A DNA stretch of 64,000 nucleotides, taken from assembly GCA_028097405.1 (NCBI GenBank), contig JAOHEK010000010.1, forward strand, positions 1 to 64,000, written 5' to 3'. Source of the DNA: Paracoccaceae bacterium (lineage in GTDB: Bacteria; Pseudomonadota; Alphaproteobacteria; Rhodobacterales; Rhodobacteraceae). Below the pieces are notes generated by a model, which saw only the letters and a list, made by a program, of their open reading frames with translations, made no database searches and was not told the DNA's origin. Positions 56,547-64,000 of the stretch are shown one piece after another (positions within the stretch are counted from its first letter, which is position 1; every line of letters starts with the position of its first letter). Made by a program: the position numbers and the translations under genes.

Positions 56547-57623
56547 ATGGACAAGATTAGATACGCAATCGTAGGCGCCGGGTGGATCAGCCAAGAGGCA
56601 TTCATGCCCTCGGTCTCGCAAACCAGCAACGCCCAGATGACAGCCATCGTGACGGGCAATGGCGAAGTTGCGTCAAAGCTGGCTGAGTTTTACGGTATCG
56701 AACACACTAGCGGGTACGATGGCTTTGATGCGCTTTTGGCGGGGGATGCTTTCGATGCGGTCTATGTGGCCTTGCCCAATTCGATGCATGCTGATTTTGC
56801 GATCCGTGCGTTGAACGCAGGTAAGCATGCAATTGTCGAAAAGCCTTTGGCCATCAGCGTCGGTGAATGCGAGGCGATGATTGCGGCGGCTGAAGCCAAC
56901 GGTGTATACCTGATGACAGCCTATCGTCTGCAATGCGAACCGATGACGGTTCAGATGCTGGAACGTATCCGCGCAGGGGCGATTGGCACACCGAAACATT
57001 TCTCATCCGTCTTCGGGTTCCAGACTTCGGCCACAAATCATCGATTGGGCTGCGAACACTGGGGCGGGCCTTTGCAGGATATTGGCATCTATTGCCTGAA
57101 CGCCGCACGGCAGATTTTCCAAGCCGAACCGATCGAAGCGCAGGCCATGCGGGTTCAGGCCAAAAACGACCCCCGCTTTTCCGAGGTGGAAAGCTCCATG
57201 GCTGTGACGCTGCGGTTTCCCGGCGAGCGGCTGGCGCAGTTTACGGTCAGTTTTGAAACCGGCGACATCGATACGTATCATGTTCTTGGAAGCGAAGGCG
57301 TGCTTATGGTTGAAAAGGGGTATGATTTTCGAACGACGCCAGAAGTGAGCATCACGAAGGGCGGCACAACCGAACAGCTTGCCATTCAGAATAGTGATCA
57401 TTTTGGAGGGCAACTGGCGTATTTCTCGGATTGCATTTTGAACGGCACGCCGCCTGCGCCCGATGGAGTTGAAGGCATGGCCGACGTCATAGCGCTGCAC
57501 GCTATTGAAAAAGCTGCAGAAACAGGGCAGTCGCAGCCAATCGATGCGCCTTCACCGGCGAAACGACCCGGATTGGAGACCTTGCGCGTAGTGCCGCGAA
57601 CTGACCGCCGATTGGTGCTCTAA
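56547..57623 (+). CDS. Gfo/Idh/MocA family NAD(P)-dependent dehydrogenase
   Basis: 358 residues from the ATG after GAAAGGGG; the frame is open upstream into glpD but that part is not used. Rossmann motif YAIVGAGWISQEAFMPS near 5-21, the catalytic-lysine segment HAIVEKPLAIS near 93-103, and the C-terminal sheet beginning near CEHWGGPLQDIGIYCLNAAR. Members oxidise or reduce sugars, inositols and their derivatives. Its stop overlaps the stop of the convergent aldolase gene by four bases. Confidence 0.88.
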   Translation: MDKIRYAIVGAGWISQEAFMPSVSQTSNAQMTAIVTGNGEVASKLAEFYGIEHTSGYDGFDALLAGDAFDAVYVALPNSMHADFAIRALNAGKHAIVEKPLAISVGECEAMIAAAEANGVYLMTAYRLQCEPMTVQMLERIRAGAIGTPKHFSSVFGFQTSATNHRLGCEHWGGPLQDIGIYCLNAARQIFQAEPIEAQAMRVQAKNDPRFSEVESSMAVTLRFPGERLAQFTVSFETGDIDTYHVLGSEGVLMVEKGYDFRTTPEVSITKGGTTEQLAIQNSDHFGGQLAYFSDCILNGTPPAPDGVEGMADVIALHAIEKAAETGQSQPIDAPSPAKRPGLETLRVVPRTDRRLVL

Positions 57624-58426
57624 TACGCCCCAGAATTGCTGTCGGACCCAACTGACCCCGTTAGTGTGCGAAATCGATCCACGACTGCTCCGGCGGCGGT
57701 GGCCAAAAACCGAACGTCGTTCTGAACGGTCACCATATCAAACCCCCATTCGATGCCACGCGCCGCATAGTCTGAGCTGCCACAATGGAGCGTGGCATGA
57801 ATCCCTGCCGCTTTGGCGACCGAGGCGATCCGTTGCTGTAATTCGATCATTTCAGGTTCTTCGCGATCAAAACCGGGGGCCAGTCTTCCGTTCGTAAAGC
57901 CTAGCGTCAGATCGGCAGGCCCGACGTAAAGTCCGTCCAGCCCCGGAGTTGCGGCGATCGCCTCAAGGTTTTCGACGCCTGCGGCGGTTTCGATCATTGC
58001 GAATGCCAAGATGTGGTCGTTGGCAGCCGTGGTTGAATAGCCATCTATGGCGAAAGCGGCACGGGTCGGGCCAAAGCTACGCTGGCCAAGGGGTGGATAC
58101 CGCAGATAGCTGACGAATTCTGCGGCTTCCTCAGCAGAATTGATCATGGGGCAGATGATCCCCATGGCGCCGGCATCAAGGTATTTCATAATCACGCCCG
58201 GTTCACGCCACGGCACACGGGCCAGAAGTGTTTTGCCTGATCCCCGCATGGCCTGAAACATGGGCAATGCGTCCGAATAATCTAAAGCACCGTGCTGGCC
58301 GTCTATTGTAATGGAATCAAATCCTTGGGCGGCCATAATTTCTGCGGTGAATGGACTGCCGACCGAACACCAGCCATTTAAAACCGGCTCTCCACGGGAC
58401 CAGATTTGTTTCAATGCATTTTCCAT
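57620..58426 (-). CDS. HpcH/HpaI-type class II aldolase
   Basis: 268 residues. WCSVGSPFTAEIMAAQGFDSITIDGQHGALDY near 19-50 carries the usual substrate-binding segment with H45. TLLARVPWREPGVIMKYLDAGAMGIICPMI near 66-95 contains the conserved catalytic arginine (R70) and the stretch leading to the metal site; AMIETAAGVENLEAI near 143-157 holds a metal-binding glutamate, and GLYVGPADLTLGF near 164-176 the aspartate. The family cleaves 2-oxo-3-hydroxy acids to pyruvate plus an aldehyde. Facing a Gfo/Idh dehydrogenase suggests sugar-acid metabolism, but the substrate is unknown. Confidence 0.88.
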   Translation of the reverse strand: MENALKQIWSRGEPVLNGWCSVGSPFTAEIMAAQGFDSITIDGQHGALDYSDALPMFQAMRGSGKTLLARVPWREPGVIMKYLDAGAMGIICPMINSAEEAAEFVSYLRYPPLGQRSFGPTRAAFAIDGYSTTAANDHILAFAMIETAAGVENLEAIAATPGLDGLYVGPADLTLGFTNGRLAPGFDREEPEMIELQQRIASVAKAAGIHATLHCGSSDYAARGIEWGFDMVTVQNDVRFLATAAGAVVDRFRTLTGSVGSDSNSGAY

Positions 58427-58812: not shown

Positions 58813-59610
58813 TTAACAAGGCCCATGGAGGGTGGGCGTGAACTCGCCAAGGGGCGTGTCTCTTACGGTTCGCAACAGTTCTATGAAGCCCTGAACCTGA
58901 TGATGCGCGCTCTGTTCGCCCTTATTTGCCGTGGCCAAATGTGCTTCGCCGACGGTCCCATCGGCGTTCAGATCCGAAGCCACCCAGCCATAAGAAATTG
59001 GGCCGATAGGGGAAATCGCCGTGGTTTCTGCAGTCGATACAAAGTCGACAGCCTTACTCATATCGACTGTTTCAGGTCGAAAACTCAGCATCAGCGAGGT
59101 TTCCCGATCGCCTCCGTGAATACCAAAAGACACTTCGCGTTCAGAAAACAGCCCCTCAGGCGCACCGAAATTGCCCCATTGGCATTTGACAGCCAACATT
59201 CCGGCTTCAACCCGCAACTCGCGGGCAAGGATTGAAATCAGGTCAAGGTTGCCGCCATGACTGTTGACGATGATGATCTTGCGCACACCAGCGCGGGCCA
59301 CCGAAAGCCCGATCTCGCGCCAAGCCCGTAGTGCTGTTTCAGCCGTTAGGGTCAGGGTTCCGCGAGCGTGCAAGTGTTCGTTTGACTTGCCTACTGCTTG
59401 AACCGGCAGAATGCGGATATCCAGATCGTCGGGGCATTGGCGGCGAAGTTCGCCTAACATGCCCTCAGCAATCATCGTATCAACGCCAACCGGCAAGTGT
59501 GGTCCGTGCTGCTCAATGGCAGCCGTTGGCAGGATGGCGATGACCTTTTCGGGGTCTAGCCCTGCGAATTCGGTGGTTCGGTAATCGGCCCAATCAAAGC
59601 GGCGGGTCAT
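58813..59610 (-). CDS. Creatininase family hydrolase
   Basis: 265 residues with the family metal site: TAAIEQHGPHLPVGVDTMIAE at 29-49 (E33, H35, H38, D44), IIVNSHGGN near 113-121 and GIHGGDRETSLML with the glutamate ligand. This family opens cyclic amides (creatinine) or removes formyl groups from pyrimidine precursors, and includes inosose lactonase-type enzymes. No creatinase or sarcosine oxidase is nearby, so creatinine itself is not the obvious substrate. It is the last gene of a six-gene overlapping operon, its ATG overlapping the stop of the dioxygenase gene. Confidence 0.85.
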   Translation of the reverse strand: MTRRFDWADYRTTEFAGLDPEKVIAILPTAAIEQHGPHLPVGVDTMIAEGMLGELRRQCPDDLDIRILPVQAVGKSNEHLHARGTLTLTAETALRAWREIGLSVARAGVRKIIIVNSHGGNLDLISILARELRVEAGMLAVKCQWGNFGAPEGLFSEREVSFGIHGGDRETSLMLSFRPETVDMSKAVDFVSTAETTAISPIGPISYGWVASDLNADGTVGEAHLATANKGEQSAHHQVQGFIELLRTVRDTPLGEFTPTLHGPC

Positions 59611-60539
59611 GTAGTCACCTTTTCGGTATACGTCGCGTCTAATCGCAGTTTCAGATACTCGGCCCCGGTCACGGGTGGGTACTTGGCTCCGCCGGTTCCC
59701 GGAAGTGCTTTGATTACGGCGTCGGGGTTGGGATCAAGGAAGAACGCCAGCGAGCGACGTGTGTTTTGTGGAATCAACACGCGGTGTGGGGTCGAGACAT
59801 AGATGTCGTTCGTCCAGCGCATCAGGCAATCGGCAATATTGATGATGAAAGCGCCGGGTACGCTCGGCACGTCGACCCAATCCTTACCGCGCGGTTGCAC
59901 CTGAAGTCCCGGTTCGCCGTCGCTGTAAAGCACGGTGATTGATCCGTAGTCGGTGTGCGCACCCGCACCGATGCCATCTCCGCCGCCACCGGGGTAGCGA
60001 AGCATGCGTAAGGTTGCGAGCGGTTCGTCCAGATAGGGCGCGAAGTAATGTTCGGGCAGGCCCAGATCCAATGCGATTGCACGGTGCAGATCGACGCCAA
60101 GGTCGTGTACGGCTTCGAAATAAGCCATGACCGTGTCGCGAAAGCTCGGCAAGTCGGGCCAAGCGTTCATGCCGCGAAAGGGTTGTTCGGTCAGGCGTGG
60201 ATCGGCGGGCGCGAATTCAAGTCCGGTGTTGAATGCTTCTTTACGGTCGACCTGATCGGGTTTGCTGTCGTCCAGATTTTCGGTACCCGGGCCAGACCAA
60301 CCGCGATTGTTGCCAATGGTTCGGATATCAAGCTTTGCCTTTTCAGCCGTTGGTAGGGCGAAAAGCTGATCTGCGGCGGCAAGCGTTTCGTCGATCAGAG
60401 ATTGGGGAATACCGTGACCTGTCATCAGAAAAAAGCCAGTGTCGCGGCAGGCGCGGCTTAGATCGGCAACAAACCCAGCCTTGTCGCTGTCCGAGGTAAA
60501 GCGAGACCAATCGAGAACCGGAATTTGTGTGTCTGTCAT
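59607..60539 (-). CDS. Isopenicillin-N-synthase-like 2-oxoglutarate/Fe(II) dioxygenase
   Basis: 310 residues. The iron triad is H195, D197 (AHTDYGS) and H252 (STPHRVL), with the 2-oxoglutarate-binding R261-x-S263 (RRSLAFF). The N-terminal DIOX_N part (VPVLDWSRF-type start, TGFFLMTGHGIPQSLIDE at 34-51) is typical. Members hydroxylate or demethylate small molecules, thymine-7-hydroxylase among them. The presence of R-x-S favours 2-oxoglutarate as cosubstrate. Overlaps both neighbours by four bases. Confidence 0.88.
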   Translation of the reverse strand: MTDTQIPVLDWSRFTSDSDKAGFVADLSRACRDTGFFLMTGHGIPQSLIDETLAAADQLFALPTAEKAKLDIRTIGNNRGWSGPGTENLDDSKPDQVDRKEAFNTGLEFAPADPRLTEQPFRGMNAWPDLPSFRDTVMAYFEAVHDLGVDLHRAIALDLGLPEHYFAPYLDEPLATLRMLRYPGGGGDGIGAGAHTDYGSITVLYSDGEPGLQVQPRGKDWVDVPSVPGAFIINIADCLMRWTNDIYVSTPHRVLIPQNTRRSLAFFLDPNPDAVIKALPGTGGAKYPPVTGAEYLKLRLDATYTEKVTT

Positions 60540-61132
60540 GAGAGAAGACGATCCATAGTTTTGGCCACGCGGTCAAGGTGAGCGCGGCGCGACGTTTCGG
60601 TTGAACTGTCCATAAGGTAGTGCGCGGCGAAGGCGGTTTTGCGGTTCTTCGCGCAAAGAAAGCCAATACCCCGCATCAACGTGCGTTTCCCCGGCGCACC
60701 GATAAGTTGGGTCAGCCACCATGACGCGCCGCAGGTGGTGAAAACACCCAAACGATTGATGTGCGTCAAACCGGGGCGGATCGTTTTGTTGGTCTCGTCT
60801 GGCATTAAAAAGGCCACGCCGGGTAAAAGCACACGATCTAACCACCCTTTCAAAACCGCCGGCAACCCGTACCACCATGTTGGATAGACTAAGATCAAAG
60901 TATCGCACCATTCGATGTCAGCCACGTCCTCCTTCACCGGGTCACGATTTACCGGTATCTCAAGGTAGGTCTCGTGCTCGAACGCGGACAGGCACGGCTC
61001 AAAACCCTTGGCATAAAGATCGGTTAGCCGGATTTCCGCACCTCGTTCGCTCAGCTTCTTTGCGACGATGTCTCGAACAGCCGATGTGAAGCTCCCCTCG
61101 CGGGGATGGCAGTACACGACCAGCGCTTTCAT
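60536..61132 (-). CDS. Flavodoxin-fold NAD(P)H oxidoreductase, copy 1
   Basis: 198 residues starting KALVVYCHPREGSFTSAV, the FMN/FAD phosphate loop of the NQO1/MdaB-type family. TLILVYPTWWYGLPAVLKGWLDRVLLPG near 78-105 is the flavin-isoalloxazine segment, and TTCGASWWLTQLIGAPGKR follows. These are quinone or azo reductases or flavin reductases. It is a clear paralogue of the neighbour at 61129-61710, sharing the start, the PxW-WFxP-like middle and overall length. It could supply reduced flavin to another operon product. Overlaps both neighbours by four bases. Confidence 0.87.
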   Translation of the reverse strand: MKALVVYCHPREGSFTSAVRDIVAKKLSERGAEIRLTDLYAKGFEPCLSAFEHETYLEIPVNRDPVKEDVADIEWCDTLILVYPTWWYGLPAVLKGWLDRVLLPGVAFLMPDETNKTIRPGLTHINRLGVFTTCGASWWLTQLIGAPGKRTLMRGIGFLCAKNRKTAFAAHYLMDSSTETSRRAHLDRVAKTMDRLLS

Positions 61133-61710
61133 AAGAGAGCCCGCATGTCGCGTTCGACCTTGTCAAGAAAAGCGCCGCGCTTTTCATCTGTGGCTAGGTT
61201 CATGTCGTAAAGTGCAAGATAGCGCATGGTTTCGGGCTGCATCACGTAGCGCACCGAGCGTGTGAAATGCTTTCTGGGTGGATCGCCGCAGATCATGGCG
61301 CGCATCCGATTGCCGCCATAGGTCGTCACGGCGGCGAGTTTCTTGATATGGGTCAGGTTGGGCCGTACTTTCCCATCGACCAGCTTGAACGACACGCCCG
61401 GCAGGAAAACGCGGTCAAAAAAGCCCTTGAGGATTGCGGGATAGCCAAAATTCCAAACTGGGAAAGAAAACACTAGCGCATCAGCGGCCCGAAGCCGTTC
61501 GACATAGTTACGCACGGGTTCGATGTTGCCGGGTTCCTCGTGGTAGTTTCGGCGTTCTTCTTCCGTAAGGACTGGCTGAAAACCCTCGGCATTCAGGTCG
61601 CAATCGTCCACGTCCCATCCACGATCCGACAGTGTTTCAACGACCTTGGTGTGAAGCGCTGCGCCGAAGCTTTCCGGGCAGGGGTGCGCGAAGACGACCA
61701 TCGCCTTCAT
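61129..61710 (-). CDS. Flavodoxin-fold NAD(P)H oxidoreductase, copy 2
   Basis: 193 residues starting KAMVVFAHPCPESFGAALH, then ADALVFSFPVWNFGYPAILKGFFDRVFLPGVSF near 77-109, aligned with the first copy. Divergence is moderate: the active-site WWYG of copy 1 is WNFG here, so substrate or partner may differ. Two tandem copies in one operon suggest two reductive steps, or a heteromer. Overlaps its neighbours by four bases each. Confidence 0.87.
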   Translation of the reverse strand: MKAMVVFAHPCPESFGAALHTKVVETLSDRGWDVDDCDLNAEGFQPVLTEEERRNYHEEPGNIEPVRNYVERLRAADALVFSFPVWNFGYPAILKGFFDRVFLPGVSFKLVDGKVRPNLTHIKKLAAVTTYGGNRMRAMICGDPPRKHFTRSVRYVMQPETMRYLALYDMNLATDEKRGAFLDKVERDMRALL

Positions 61711-63107
61711 TCGGCGGCCTGTATTTTGGGGTAGGCGTACATCTGATTGAAGCCCCAGTTCGGATCATCCCAAGCGATCATCTTGCCGGGGTTTAACAGG
61801 CCTTTTGGGTCAGCCTCTTGTTTAAAGCGTAGTTGCCTGTCGTCGACGGTTTGGCGGCCACCTTCTTCCAGCGTGTATCGGTGCGGATTGAAGACCATCG
61901 CGCCCGCGTCTTCGTGCATTTTGACGATTTCATCCAAGCGTTCTTCGGTGGTGAACTTGACCAGACTAAGGCCTGCAAATATGACTTTTCCGTTCTCGCG
62001 CAGGACCTCAAGGTGCTGTAAAACTTCCGGAGACAACGCGCCTTGCATCTTAGCAATCAGCGCTTTGTGTTGTGGATAACCGTAACGTACCTGCAAGTAG
62101 GTGATCGATGGATCGACCTTCAAGGCGCGCAGCGTCGTATGGTTCCAGCCGTATTCGAACACGGGCCCGGGGCTGCGATCCCAGTCATAATCGTCGCTGC
62201 GATAGATCAGCTTGGCTTCCGGACGTCGGCCAAGAAACGTCAGAAACCCATCCATGGAATGGGGTGCGATCATCAGGCCGATAAGGTTGGTGCCTGCCTC
62301 GACATAAGGGGCGACACGTTGGAAAAAGTCCTTGGCAATGGGCGCTTCGAACACCGTGCCAAGCTTCATCAGGATGCCGTCTTGGTTGGCAAGGTCTTCG
62401 GCGAAAGCAACCGCCGCACTAAAGTCTTCCGTTGCGACAAACATCTCGGTCCAGTCATAGGCCGGAGCCAGCGGAAGCTCGATTTCGGTGATGATGCCGT
62501 TGGTTCCGTAAGCGTGGCTGACGCGGGCCAGTTCTTCGCCGCGGAACTCCAGCACACGGGGCTCTTGTTCCATGGTCACGACGCGCAGGCGAATGATGTT
62601 GCCTAGATCGCGAAGCGACCCCCAAGTGCAGGACCCAACACCGCCCGAACCGCCTGCGATAAAGCCGCCGATGGTTGCCGTCGCCCATGTTGAGGAAAAC
62701 ATACGGATTTCTTGGTTTGAGTGTTCCTTGCAGGCCGCATCCAAGTCTTTCAGCAGAACGCCGGGTTCTGTGATGACGCGACCGGGGTGAACTTCGCGCA
62801 CTTTGTCCATATGGCGCAGGTGCATGACGCATCCGCCCGCCAAAGGCATGGCTTGGCCGTAGTTTCCCGTACCTGCGCCGCGTGTCGTCACGGGGCAATC
62901 GTGGTCATAGCAGGCTTTCAGCACCTCAATGATCTCGGCCTCGCTGCGCGGGCTTACGACAAAGTCAGCGATCACATGGTCTAAACGCGCCTTCAAAACC
63001 GGCGAGTACCAAAAGAAATCGCGACTTTTGGCTTTGATGGCGGCTTCGGATTGGTCAATGTCCAAGTGTGACAGGGCCGCTTTCGCGGCGGCGACGTTGT
63101 CTTTCAT
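61707..63107 (-). CDS. FAD-binding oxidase/dehydrogenase, GlcD/VAO-type
   Basis: 466 residues from the ATG at 63107, which overlaps the upstream stop (TGATG); a TTG three bases earlier is not preferred. The FAD-binding PCMH domain shows as FVVSPRSEAEIIEVLKACYDHDCPVTTRGAGTGNYGQAMPLAGG near 49-92 and the flavin-contacting STWATATIGGFIAGGSGGVGS near 139-159. The C-terminal cap ends with GLLNPGKMI. Such enzymes oxidise 2-hydroxy acids, alcohols or amines. No cysteine-rich iron-sulfur partner is encoded alongside. Confidence 0.87.
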   Translation of the reverse strand: MKDNVAAAKAALSHLDIDQSEAAIKAKSRDFFWYSPVLKARLDHVIADFVVSPRSEAEIIEVLKACYDHDCPVTTRGAGTGNYGQAMPLAGGCVMHLRHMDKVREVHPGRVITEPGVLLKDLDAACKEHSNQEIRMFSSTWATATIGGFIAGGSGGVGSCTWGSLRDLGNIIRLRVVTMEQEPRVLEFRGEELARVSHAYGTNGIITEIELPLAPAYDWTEMFVATEDFSAAVAFAEDLANQDGILMKLGTVFEAPIAKDFFQRVAPYVEAGTNLIGLMIAPHSMDGFLTFLGRRPEAKLIYRSDDYDWDRSPGPVFEYGWNHTTLRALKVDPSITYLQVRYGYPQHKALIAKMQGALSPEVLQHLEVLRENGKVIFAGLSLVKFTTEERLDEIVKMHEDAGAMVFNPHRYTLEEGGRQTVDDRQLRFKQEADPKGLLNPGKMIAWDDPNWGFNQMYAYPKIQAAE

Positions 63108-64000
63108 CAAGACGTCTCCATCAGGTGATCAAGTTCGGAATAGTCCGGAAGGGTTGTGTCGATTGACTTGCCATTTCGGAAGACGATGCGGTCGGACTGT
63201 GGGCGGGCGAAAAGCTCGGTCCAGCTCCGCGCCTTGAAGACAATAAAGTCGGCAGGCGCGCCGGGTGCGAACGACGAAGCCTCGAACCCACACGCCTTTG
63301 CGGGGTTGTGGGTGAATGCGTTTGGCCAGTCTTTGCGACCATGGTCAAGGTGACCGATGCGGGTCGCTTGGCGCATCACTTCCAGCATATCGAGATCGCC
63401 ATAGGCGTAGAACGGATCGCGCGTGTTGTCGCTGGCGAAACTGACGTTGATGCCGCGCACTATCATTTCATGGACAAGCGTAATGCCCCGATTGCGCGGG
63501 GTGCGGTCTGCGTGCCGGTCTTGCAGGTACAGGTTGCACATGGGCAGACTGACGATGTTCAGACCGGCCTTGGCGACCAGATCCAATGTCTCCATTGCGC
63601 GGGGTTCGTCTTGTGTCGAAAGCGAGCAGCAGTGCCCGACCGTGACAGATCGTGTCCAACTCATCTCAAGAACGGTTTCTGCAATCACCCGTAAGGTTTC
63701 CGAACTGGCATCCATGGTTTCGTCCGCATGGAAATCCACGTCAAGATCACGATCCCCGGCCAATTCGAAGAACTGTTGCACCCGATCCTTTAGGTCGGGA
63801 ATGGGATAGGTCACGAAGCCCAGAACGCCGCCCGTCGCCGCTACAATATCGGCTGTGCGGGCGTAGTCTTTGCGAGTGTTTTCAATACTGTCGCAGCCGA
63901 TAAGGCTAGACGCTTGCAGATCAATCCGCCCTTTCCAGGCACGGCGCACGTCGTCGAAAACCGGCCACGATATTTCGTCTTGGGGCGCTAGGCTGTCAAT
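63107..64000 (-). CDS. Cytosine-deaminase-like amidohydrolase, N-terminus cut by window end
   Basis: 298 codons are visible; the frame remains open at the window edge, so the N-terminal part with the HxH metal motif is missing. FHADETMD carries the H-x-x-E type catalytic pair of the CodA group, VGHCCSL the next metal histidine and SFASDNTRDPFYAYGDLDML the aspartate plus the DxxRDPF signature of cytosine deaminase relatives. WKGRIDLQASSLIG also fits CodA. Substrates in this group include cytosine, isocytosine, creatinine and s-triazines. It is first of the visible part of the six-gene operon. Confidence 0.88.
   Translation of the reverse strand: MDSLAPQDEISWPVFDDVRRAWKGRIDLQASSLIGCDSIENTRKDYARTADIVAATGGVLGFVTYPIPDLKDRVQQFFELAGDRDLDVDFHADETMDASSETLRVIAETVLEMSWTRSVTVGHCCSLSTQDEPRAMETLDLVAKAGLNIVSLPMCNLYLQDRHADRTPRNRGITLVHEMIVRGINVSFASDNTRDPFYAYGDLDMLEVMRQATRIGHLDHGRKDWPNAFTHNPAKACGFEASSFAPGAPADFIVFKARSWTELFARPQSDRIVFRNGKSIDTTLPDYSELDHLMETS

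Follow-up and report, generated by a model that had tools for sequence, protein, structure and literature searches.

Which compound is taken apart by an operon that couples a supposed cytosine deaminase with a flavin adenine dinucleotide (FAD)-dependent enzyme, two NAD(P)H oxidoreductases, an Fe(II)/2-oxoglutarate (2OG) oxygenase and a creatininase-like hydrolase? This question is raised by six genes at the right-hand end of a 64,000-base stretch of DNA from a Paracoccaceae bacterium (the window: bases 1-64000 of the 72,784-base contig JAOHEK010000010.1 in GCA_028097405.1, an assembly of 118 contigs that is 62.6% complete). Judging by the homologies of the encoded proteins, we consider it quite probable that the block to which they belong is an uptake and ring-degradation operon for folate-derived pteridines (pterins), through which nitrogen would be obtained. 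The six genes are the following:

58813..59610, minus strand: creatininase-family metallohydrolase, 265 aa (PF02633, E 4.4e-66)
59607..60539, minus strand: Fe(II)/2OG oxygenase, 310 aa (DIOX_N + 2OG-FeII_Oxy)
60536..61132, minus strand: flavodoxin-2 family NAD(P)H oxidoreductase B, 198 aa (PF02525)
61129..61710, minus strand: flavodoxin-2 family NAD(P)H oxidoreductase A, 193 aa (PF02525; PDB relatives NADPH quinone reductase and NQO1/NQO2)
61707..63110, minus strand: VAO-type FAD enzyme (FAD-binding-4), 467 aa, homologue of 6V42 (PF01565)
63107..64000, cut by the window edge, minus strand: amidohydrolase, pterin-deaminase type by homology (NCBIfam name: cytosine deaminase)

The positions of the open reading frames (ORFs) confirm the preliminary description of this stretch in that all five junctions overlap by 1-4 bases: four are 4-base ATGA overlaps, and the amidohydrolase/FAD junction reads TTGATGA, an overlap of 1 base with an ATG start or of 4 with a TTG start. 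Pfam confirms the families of all six products. The complete amidohydrolase ORF extends to contig position 64402, or to 64372 if its start is the ATG that overlaps the stop of a permease gene by 4 bases. Beyond the window the same operon continues with this permease, an ATP-binding cassette (ABC) ATPase and an NMT1/THI5-family binding protein (SBP), with a RidA (L-PSP) gene lying divergently. The expectation that a transporter and a regulator would follow past the window was thereby borne out for the transporter, an NMT1/THI5-type ABC system; as to the regulator, the records of Rhizobium, Klebsiella, Pantoea and Rahnella that were examined show a LysR gene adjoining the block.

The block of about ten linked genes forms one coupled, conserved set. 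Named genomes were scanned with a profile of the FAD enzyme, the best 80 of at least 586 confirmed relatives being kept; 64 of these loci were well flanked, and in them presence was counted by tblastn with the window proteins at fixed score floors within 9 kb of the FAD gene. The genes for the SBP, ATPase, permease, amidohydrolase and FAD enzyme occur together in all 64, in keeping with the earlier proposal of a single set attacking a nitrogen heterocycle; the neighborhood search, which had been suggested for Rhodobacterales as its check, finds the block conserved, with the three transporter genes traveling along in 64/64.

Pteridine-enzyme relatives of the amidohydrolase and FAD enzyme

Three separate genes of this block or of a partner operon trace to pteridine enzymes. 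The first encodes the amidohydrolase, which even in its cut form passes the NCBIfam 'cytosine deaminase' equivalog PRK07583 (418.9 vs 403 bits). The metal and catalytic residues H61, H63, H214, E217, H246 and D313 are present in 79/79 sequences. Of the CodA positions Q156, D314 and W319, which we take to be substrate residues, the second is replaced by N and the third by F in 79/79, and Q156 is retained in 0/79; the window's enzyme has G, N and F at the three. On these replacements we reject a cytosine deaminase of the CodA kind. In the tree the block amidohydrolases form their own 53-row group (100/99) apart from Escherichia coli CodA, while CodA-like sequences from the same genome sample (L192-L194) retain Q156 and W319 and cluster with CodA; L191, with N and F at positions 314 and 319 and without E217 and D313, falls outside the block group.

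A relative with an assayed function comes from Variovorax sp. F1, whose 399-aa pterin deaminase was cloned and is reported in the available text of You et al. 2022 (PMC9513972) to act on folic and pteroic acid (kcat 10.1 per s and Km 0.28 mM on folate, with pteroate slower) and to be 37% identical to Arad3529. According to the same text, its cloning used a primer placed on a conserved 'endoribonuclease' gene directly downstream (PMC9513972). The complement of this primer encodes MSMGKPM and matches the start of a RidA gene with 0 mismatches in L166 (= L195) and with 1 mismatch each in L167 (= L196) and L168 (= L197). The gene directly upstream of the primer-bearing RidA in all three is a block-type amidohydrolase, in L168 of 400 aa from its likely start, and within 9 kb each of these genomes also has the genes for a PDR reductase, SBP, FAD enzyme, permease, ATPase and creatininase. 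The F1 system and the block are alike in having an amidohydrolase encoded directly before RidA, with the primer-site orthologues adjoining the whole block; the blocks of these orthologues differ in having a PDR/VanB reductase (L197 also has a flavodoxin-2 gene) and in that no 2OG oxygenase was seen in their 20-kb stretches. The window's amidohydrolase groups with the primer-anchored orthologues, shares D314N and W319F with them, and is a candidate pterin deaminase, as predicted from its sequence. Separately, we observed that the L167 amidohydrolase match (G660:C1:305740-306879) contains one in-frame TGA.

The second gene encodes the FAD enzyme, which scores 573 bits against PDB 6V42 in a sequence search. 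Its structural model (predicted local distance difference test, pLDDT, 82.7) superimposes on 6V42 with Z 45.8 at 2.3 Å over 447 of 467 residues and 54% identity, the next row of the structure search reaching only Z 30.1. The deposited title of 6V42 reads 'Crystal structure of the flavin oxygenase with cofactor bound involved in folate catabolism'. A midpoint-rooted tree of 60 chosen rows places 6V42 within a 100/99 group of 37 alongside the FAD enzymes of the window and of Rhizobium blocks. The likeness to the 6V42/6V43 oxygenase comprises a common fold as well as a shared, supported tree group. Among the matches listed, 11 of 12 plasmid relatives of 6V42 are from Rhizobium, the best being about 66% identical, and in the one Rhizobium record examined, WSM1689, the block surrounds a 6V42-related gene (65% identical). 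The FAD enzyme is a close homologue of the folate-catabolism flavin oxygenase, and is predicted on this basis to oxygenate a pteridine. Tandem FAD genes occur within one block in two places, three copies in L046 6688-11971 (G164) and two in L048 8713-11441 (G267); these may be paired oxygenases for successive steps.

Partner operon and variation of the block

The third gene belongs to a neighboring operon in relatives. In plasmid records of Klebsiella pneumoniae and Rahnella, the block (PDR/VanB reductase, amidohydrolase, RidA, creatininase, SBP, ATPase, permease and FAD gene) lies divergently to a LysR gene, after which come an SBP, another amidohydrolase and a 2OG oxygenase. The second amidohydrolase of Klebsiella, a protein separate from the block's own amidohydrolase, scores 673 bits against 2PAJ, which bears the PDB name 'putative cytosine/guanine deaminase' and which we take to be isoxanthopterin deaminase. 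A homologue (43% identical) in a like operon of Paracoccaceae La 6 is annotated 'Isoxanthopterin deaminase', and the pairing of such a deaminase with a 2OG oxygenase recurs in La 6, Qingshengfaniella and G076, on a different contig than the block in the last, and nearby in Pantoea. The partner-operon SBP of Klebsiella is 41% identical to the window SBP, that of La 6 weakly so (32% over 90 residues). Deaminases of isoxanthopterin and pterin-6-carboxylate were found in Sargasso Sea DNA (Hall et al. 2010, as cited in the available text of PMC5270733).

The FAD enzyme is matched in 14 of 289 genomes of the class (E ≤ 1e-50), while the relatives set has matches in 10 of its 61 genomes (E ≤ 1e-30); the window's genome is included in both. 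Isoxanthopterin deaminase matches (E ≤ 1e-70) occur in 19 of the 289, of which two, G061 and G076, also belong to the 14 that have the FAD gene; this co-occurrence proves nothing, because only the G076 match exceeds 45% identity (51%), and the others, at 35-41%, may be 8-oxoguanine deaminases. Two neighborhoods are recorded here as observations: in the La 6 plasmid (L140 2122-11437) the isoxanthopterin deaminase/2OG/ABC operon adjoins annotated FolD and methylene-tetrahydrofolate reductase genes, and in the Pantoea At-9b plasmid (L142 6004-8823) the isoxanthopterin-deaminase homologue adjoins an annotated 8-oxoguanine deaminase.

Around the five constant genes the block varies. At least one flavodoxin-2 gene is present in 63 of the 64 well-flanked loci (two copies in 45, one in 18), a creatininase-family gene in 57 and RidA in 54. 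The 2OG oxygenase is an optional add-on: it is found in 29 of the 64, all 29 being among the 48 loci of L052-L112 (mostly Rhodobacterales), and in 0/16 Rhizobiales loci of L113-L131 (Rhizobium, Ciceribacter and other Rhizobiales); one of the 29, L086, has a copy only 34% identical and on the opposite strand. The window's version differs from that of Rhizobium by an added 2OG oxygenase and a second flavodoxin-type reductase. Far-side genes were considered as a replacement for the creatininase in six of the seven loci without it and rejected, the three checked (L109) being opposite-strand sugar genes. Where RidA is absent, two ORFs lying upstream of the SBP gave no regulator, one having no match and the other barely passing a phosphatase-like family.

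Occurrences of the block span Rhodobacterales, Rhizobiales, Comamonadaceae and Enterobacterales, and the Comamonadaceae, Klebsiella, Pantoea and Rahnella stretches examined all carry it; no DNA match to the Klebsiella FAD gene was found in E. coli genomes. Among the best 80 of at least 586 relatives, the named locus nearest by FAD enzyme is an uncultured Rhodobacteraceae metagenome-assembled genome (93% identity), with Silicimonas next. An amidohydrolase-seeded search of wider samples, in which 42 of the best matches were given loci, produced 38 loci (L153-L190; L153 and L181 are one place), of which 37 are accompanied within about 1.5 kb by one or more other block families and one, L189, by none; the remote L191-L194 (28-31% identical) likewise have no other block family nearby. 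One family sampled for the amidohydrolase is taken as Burkholderiales because of L139 and the RidA primer match.

The FAD enzyme is also matched in 140 plasmid records, 109 of them from Rhizobium and some from Enterobacterales. Such plasmid carriage would suit a role in detoxification or salvage, in which the block removes oxidized pterins or folate-like inhibitors rather than serving nutrition; quinone-reductase-type proteins and RidA are, moreover, damage-control families. Against this stands the constancy of the binding-protein-dependent ABC importer in every well-flanked locus, which fits uptake for use, and we hold the detoxification alternative to be rather improbable.

Several neighborhoods depart from the usual layout. 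A reduced block on the Agrobacterium F2 plasmid (L136 8111-14059) has the genes for a creatininase, FAD enzyme, SBP, permease and ATPase; its 2OG oxygenase shares 40% identity with that of the window, and no amidohydrolase is annotated in the stretch. On the Rhizobium leguminosarum WSM1689 plasmid (L135 1-2681), annotated PaoABC-type molybdenum aldehyde oxidoreductase genes lie divergently from the block; their product might oxidize a pterin aldehyde. In the window, an aldolase-like gene (HpcH/HpaI type by eye; 57620-58426) lies directly downstream of the block on the same strand, and such a gene also adjoins the block in L052.

The two enzymes at the downstream end bear on what happens after deamination. 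The 2OG oxygenase has the motifs HTD at 195, PHRV at 251 and RRSL at 261, and H195, D197, H252 and R261 are invariant in alignment A3; its model is closest to thymine-7-hydroxylase 5c3p (Z 36.8, 34% identity). The creatininase-like protein meets Pfam PF02633 (223 bits vs a cut-off of 31.3) and falls below both the creatininase equivalog TIGR04448 (81.1 vs 235 bits) and the mycofactocin MftE family TIGR03964 (95.4 vs 172 bits). We propose it, from its sequence, as a putative cyclic-amide or ring hydrolase. Catabolism of creatinine, hydantoin or an N-methyl-nucleobase, in which the 2OG enzyme would demethylate and the creatininase would be a genuine one, is suggested by the family names only; besides the failed equivalog score, NSHGGN stands in place of the creatininase motif NGHYEN and no 2OG gene was found in 35 of the 64 well-flanked loci, which leaves this alternative highly improbable. 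Of the preliminary description, we do not favor a methylated pyrimidine or purine, hydantoin or creatinine as the target: those relatives whose role has been tested or deposited indicate the pteridine ring of folate and pterins, and nothing was found in support of a demethylation step. Its statement that there is no recognized pathway proves too strong, because part of the pterin pathway is known, namely the pterin deaminase and the deposited flavin oxygenase, the later steps being largely undescribed.

A proposed route for pteridine breakdown

In the mechanism that we propose, the NMT1/THI5-type ABC transporter would import a pterin or folate fragment, and the CodA-like amidohydrolase would hydrolyze its 2-amino group, converting pterin to lumazine with release of ammonia. 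The two flavodoxin-type NAD(P)H oxidoreductases, replaced elsewhere by PDR-type reductases, would supply reducing power to the FAD enzyme or to the pteridine, and the VAO-type FAD enzyme would oxygenate the pteridine. The thymine-hydroxylase-like 2OG oxygenase, which the window shares with about 60% of the loci in the mostly Rhodobacterales group, may add an optional hydroxylation, after which the creatininase-family hydrolase would open the resulting cyclic amide and RidA would hydrolyze a reactive imine or enamine. Gene content, conservation, homology and residue patterns are direct observations on the block, to which published or deposited work on relatives would add the 2-deamination and the place of the flavin oxygenase in folate catabolism, deamination being the one step that appears to have published biochemical support, in a relative. 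Which substrate this organism uses, what reactions follow deamination and in what order, and whether it is the FAD enzyme or the pteridine that the reductases supply are matters of inference.

A comparable logic is seen in Rut pyrimidine degradation, where flavin-dependent oxygenation, a flavin reductase, a hydrolase and the RidA-type RutC act on a ring. The proposed route resembles it in combining a flavin-dependent oxygenation and its reductase with a hydrolase and a RidA-type protein acting on a ring, whereas the Pfam families of the block differ, RidA apart, no search having been aimed at Rut proteins.

Several observations weigh against the pteridine reading. The window's amidohydrolase is only 37% (L166) and 39% (L168) identical to the primer-anchored orthologues, and only 25% to that of the Klebsiella block. 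The coding primers of the F1 deaminase itself, with up to 4 mismatches allowed, matched two unrelated places (5') or none (3'), and the degenerate 5' primer had no match in 200 genomes, for which reason the link to this deaminase is carried by the RidA primer together with the order and length of the genes. The available text of You et al. 2022 also states that F1 cell extract decomposed only minimal deaminopteroic acid (PMC9513972), so that onward ring opening was not seen in that strain. The role of 6V42 is known from its deposited title alone, a literature search having brought up no paper, and a search on the gene set and on folate and pterin catabolism listed no paper on this operon. Creatininase and RidA genes are missing within range in 7 and 10 of the 64 well-flanked loci, respectively; since the Klebsiella RidA has no BLAST match to that of the window (E ≤ 1e-3) and the Comamonadaceae RidA is only 29% identical to it, the RidA proteins of the block are not one close family. 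The 2OG oxygenases paired with isoxanthopterin-deaminase homologues are only 31-34% identical to the window's, and because the window's own genome, 62.6% complete, has no such deaminase homologue (E ≤ 1e-70), the partner-operon evidence concerns relatives. Lastly, structures 9ovh (Z 36.2) and 9ig5 (Z 36.1) tie with thymine-7-hydroxylase within 1 Z as matches to the 2OG oxygenase, and 9ovh, an ancestral ethylene-forming enzyme, is its best PDB match by sequence.

Some of this evidence would also suit degradation of another fused or simple N-heterocycle, a modified purine or pyrimidine such as a methylated nucleobase, 8-oxoguanine or a thiamine pyrimidine, in which case the folate links of 6V42 and of the Variovorax deaminase would mark a substrate that is related but not the one used here. 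The window SBP matches ThiY/THI5-type pyrimidine binders weakly, as a distant relative; the fold of the 2OG oxygenase is nearest thymine-7-hydroxylase, with the ties just described; about 60% of the positions in the amidohydrolase are not shared with the primer-anchored orthologues; and an 8-oxoguanine deaminase gene is the neighbor of the isoxanthopterin-deaminase homologue in Pantoea At-9b. The relation of three separate genes of the block or its partner operon to pteridine enzymes, however, as well as the identity of the D314N and W319F replacements in the window and the primer-anchored orthologues, argues otherwise, and we consider another heterocycle unlikely.

Returning to pteridines, the available text of You et al. 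2022 closes with the question of whether, and by what means, bacteria break down the pteroic and deaminopteroic acid left from folate (PMC9513972). We give about even chances to the further proposal that the block is this missing onward route, in which the ring of deaminated pterins (lumazines) is oxygenated and opened to yield usable nitrogen, and that the window's version includes a 2OG pteridine hydroxylase and a creatininase-fold ring opener; a literature search brought up no description of either kind of enzyme in pterin breakdown. The F1 deaminase family is linked here to a block of ten genes that is carried by marine and soil Alphaproteobacteria, by Comamonadaceae and by some Enterobacterales and that offers a candidate for each later step. 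If the pteridine reading is true, many proteins named 'cytosine deaminase', 'creatininase family' or 'FAD-binding oxidoreductase' in these operons would act on pterins, and the block would constitute a route by which a class of vitamin and pigment rings is returned to the nitrogen cycle in both sea and soil.

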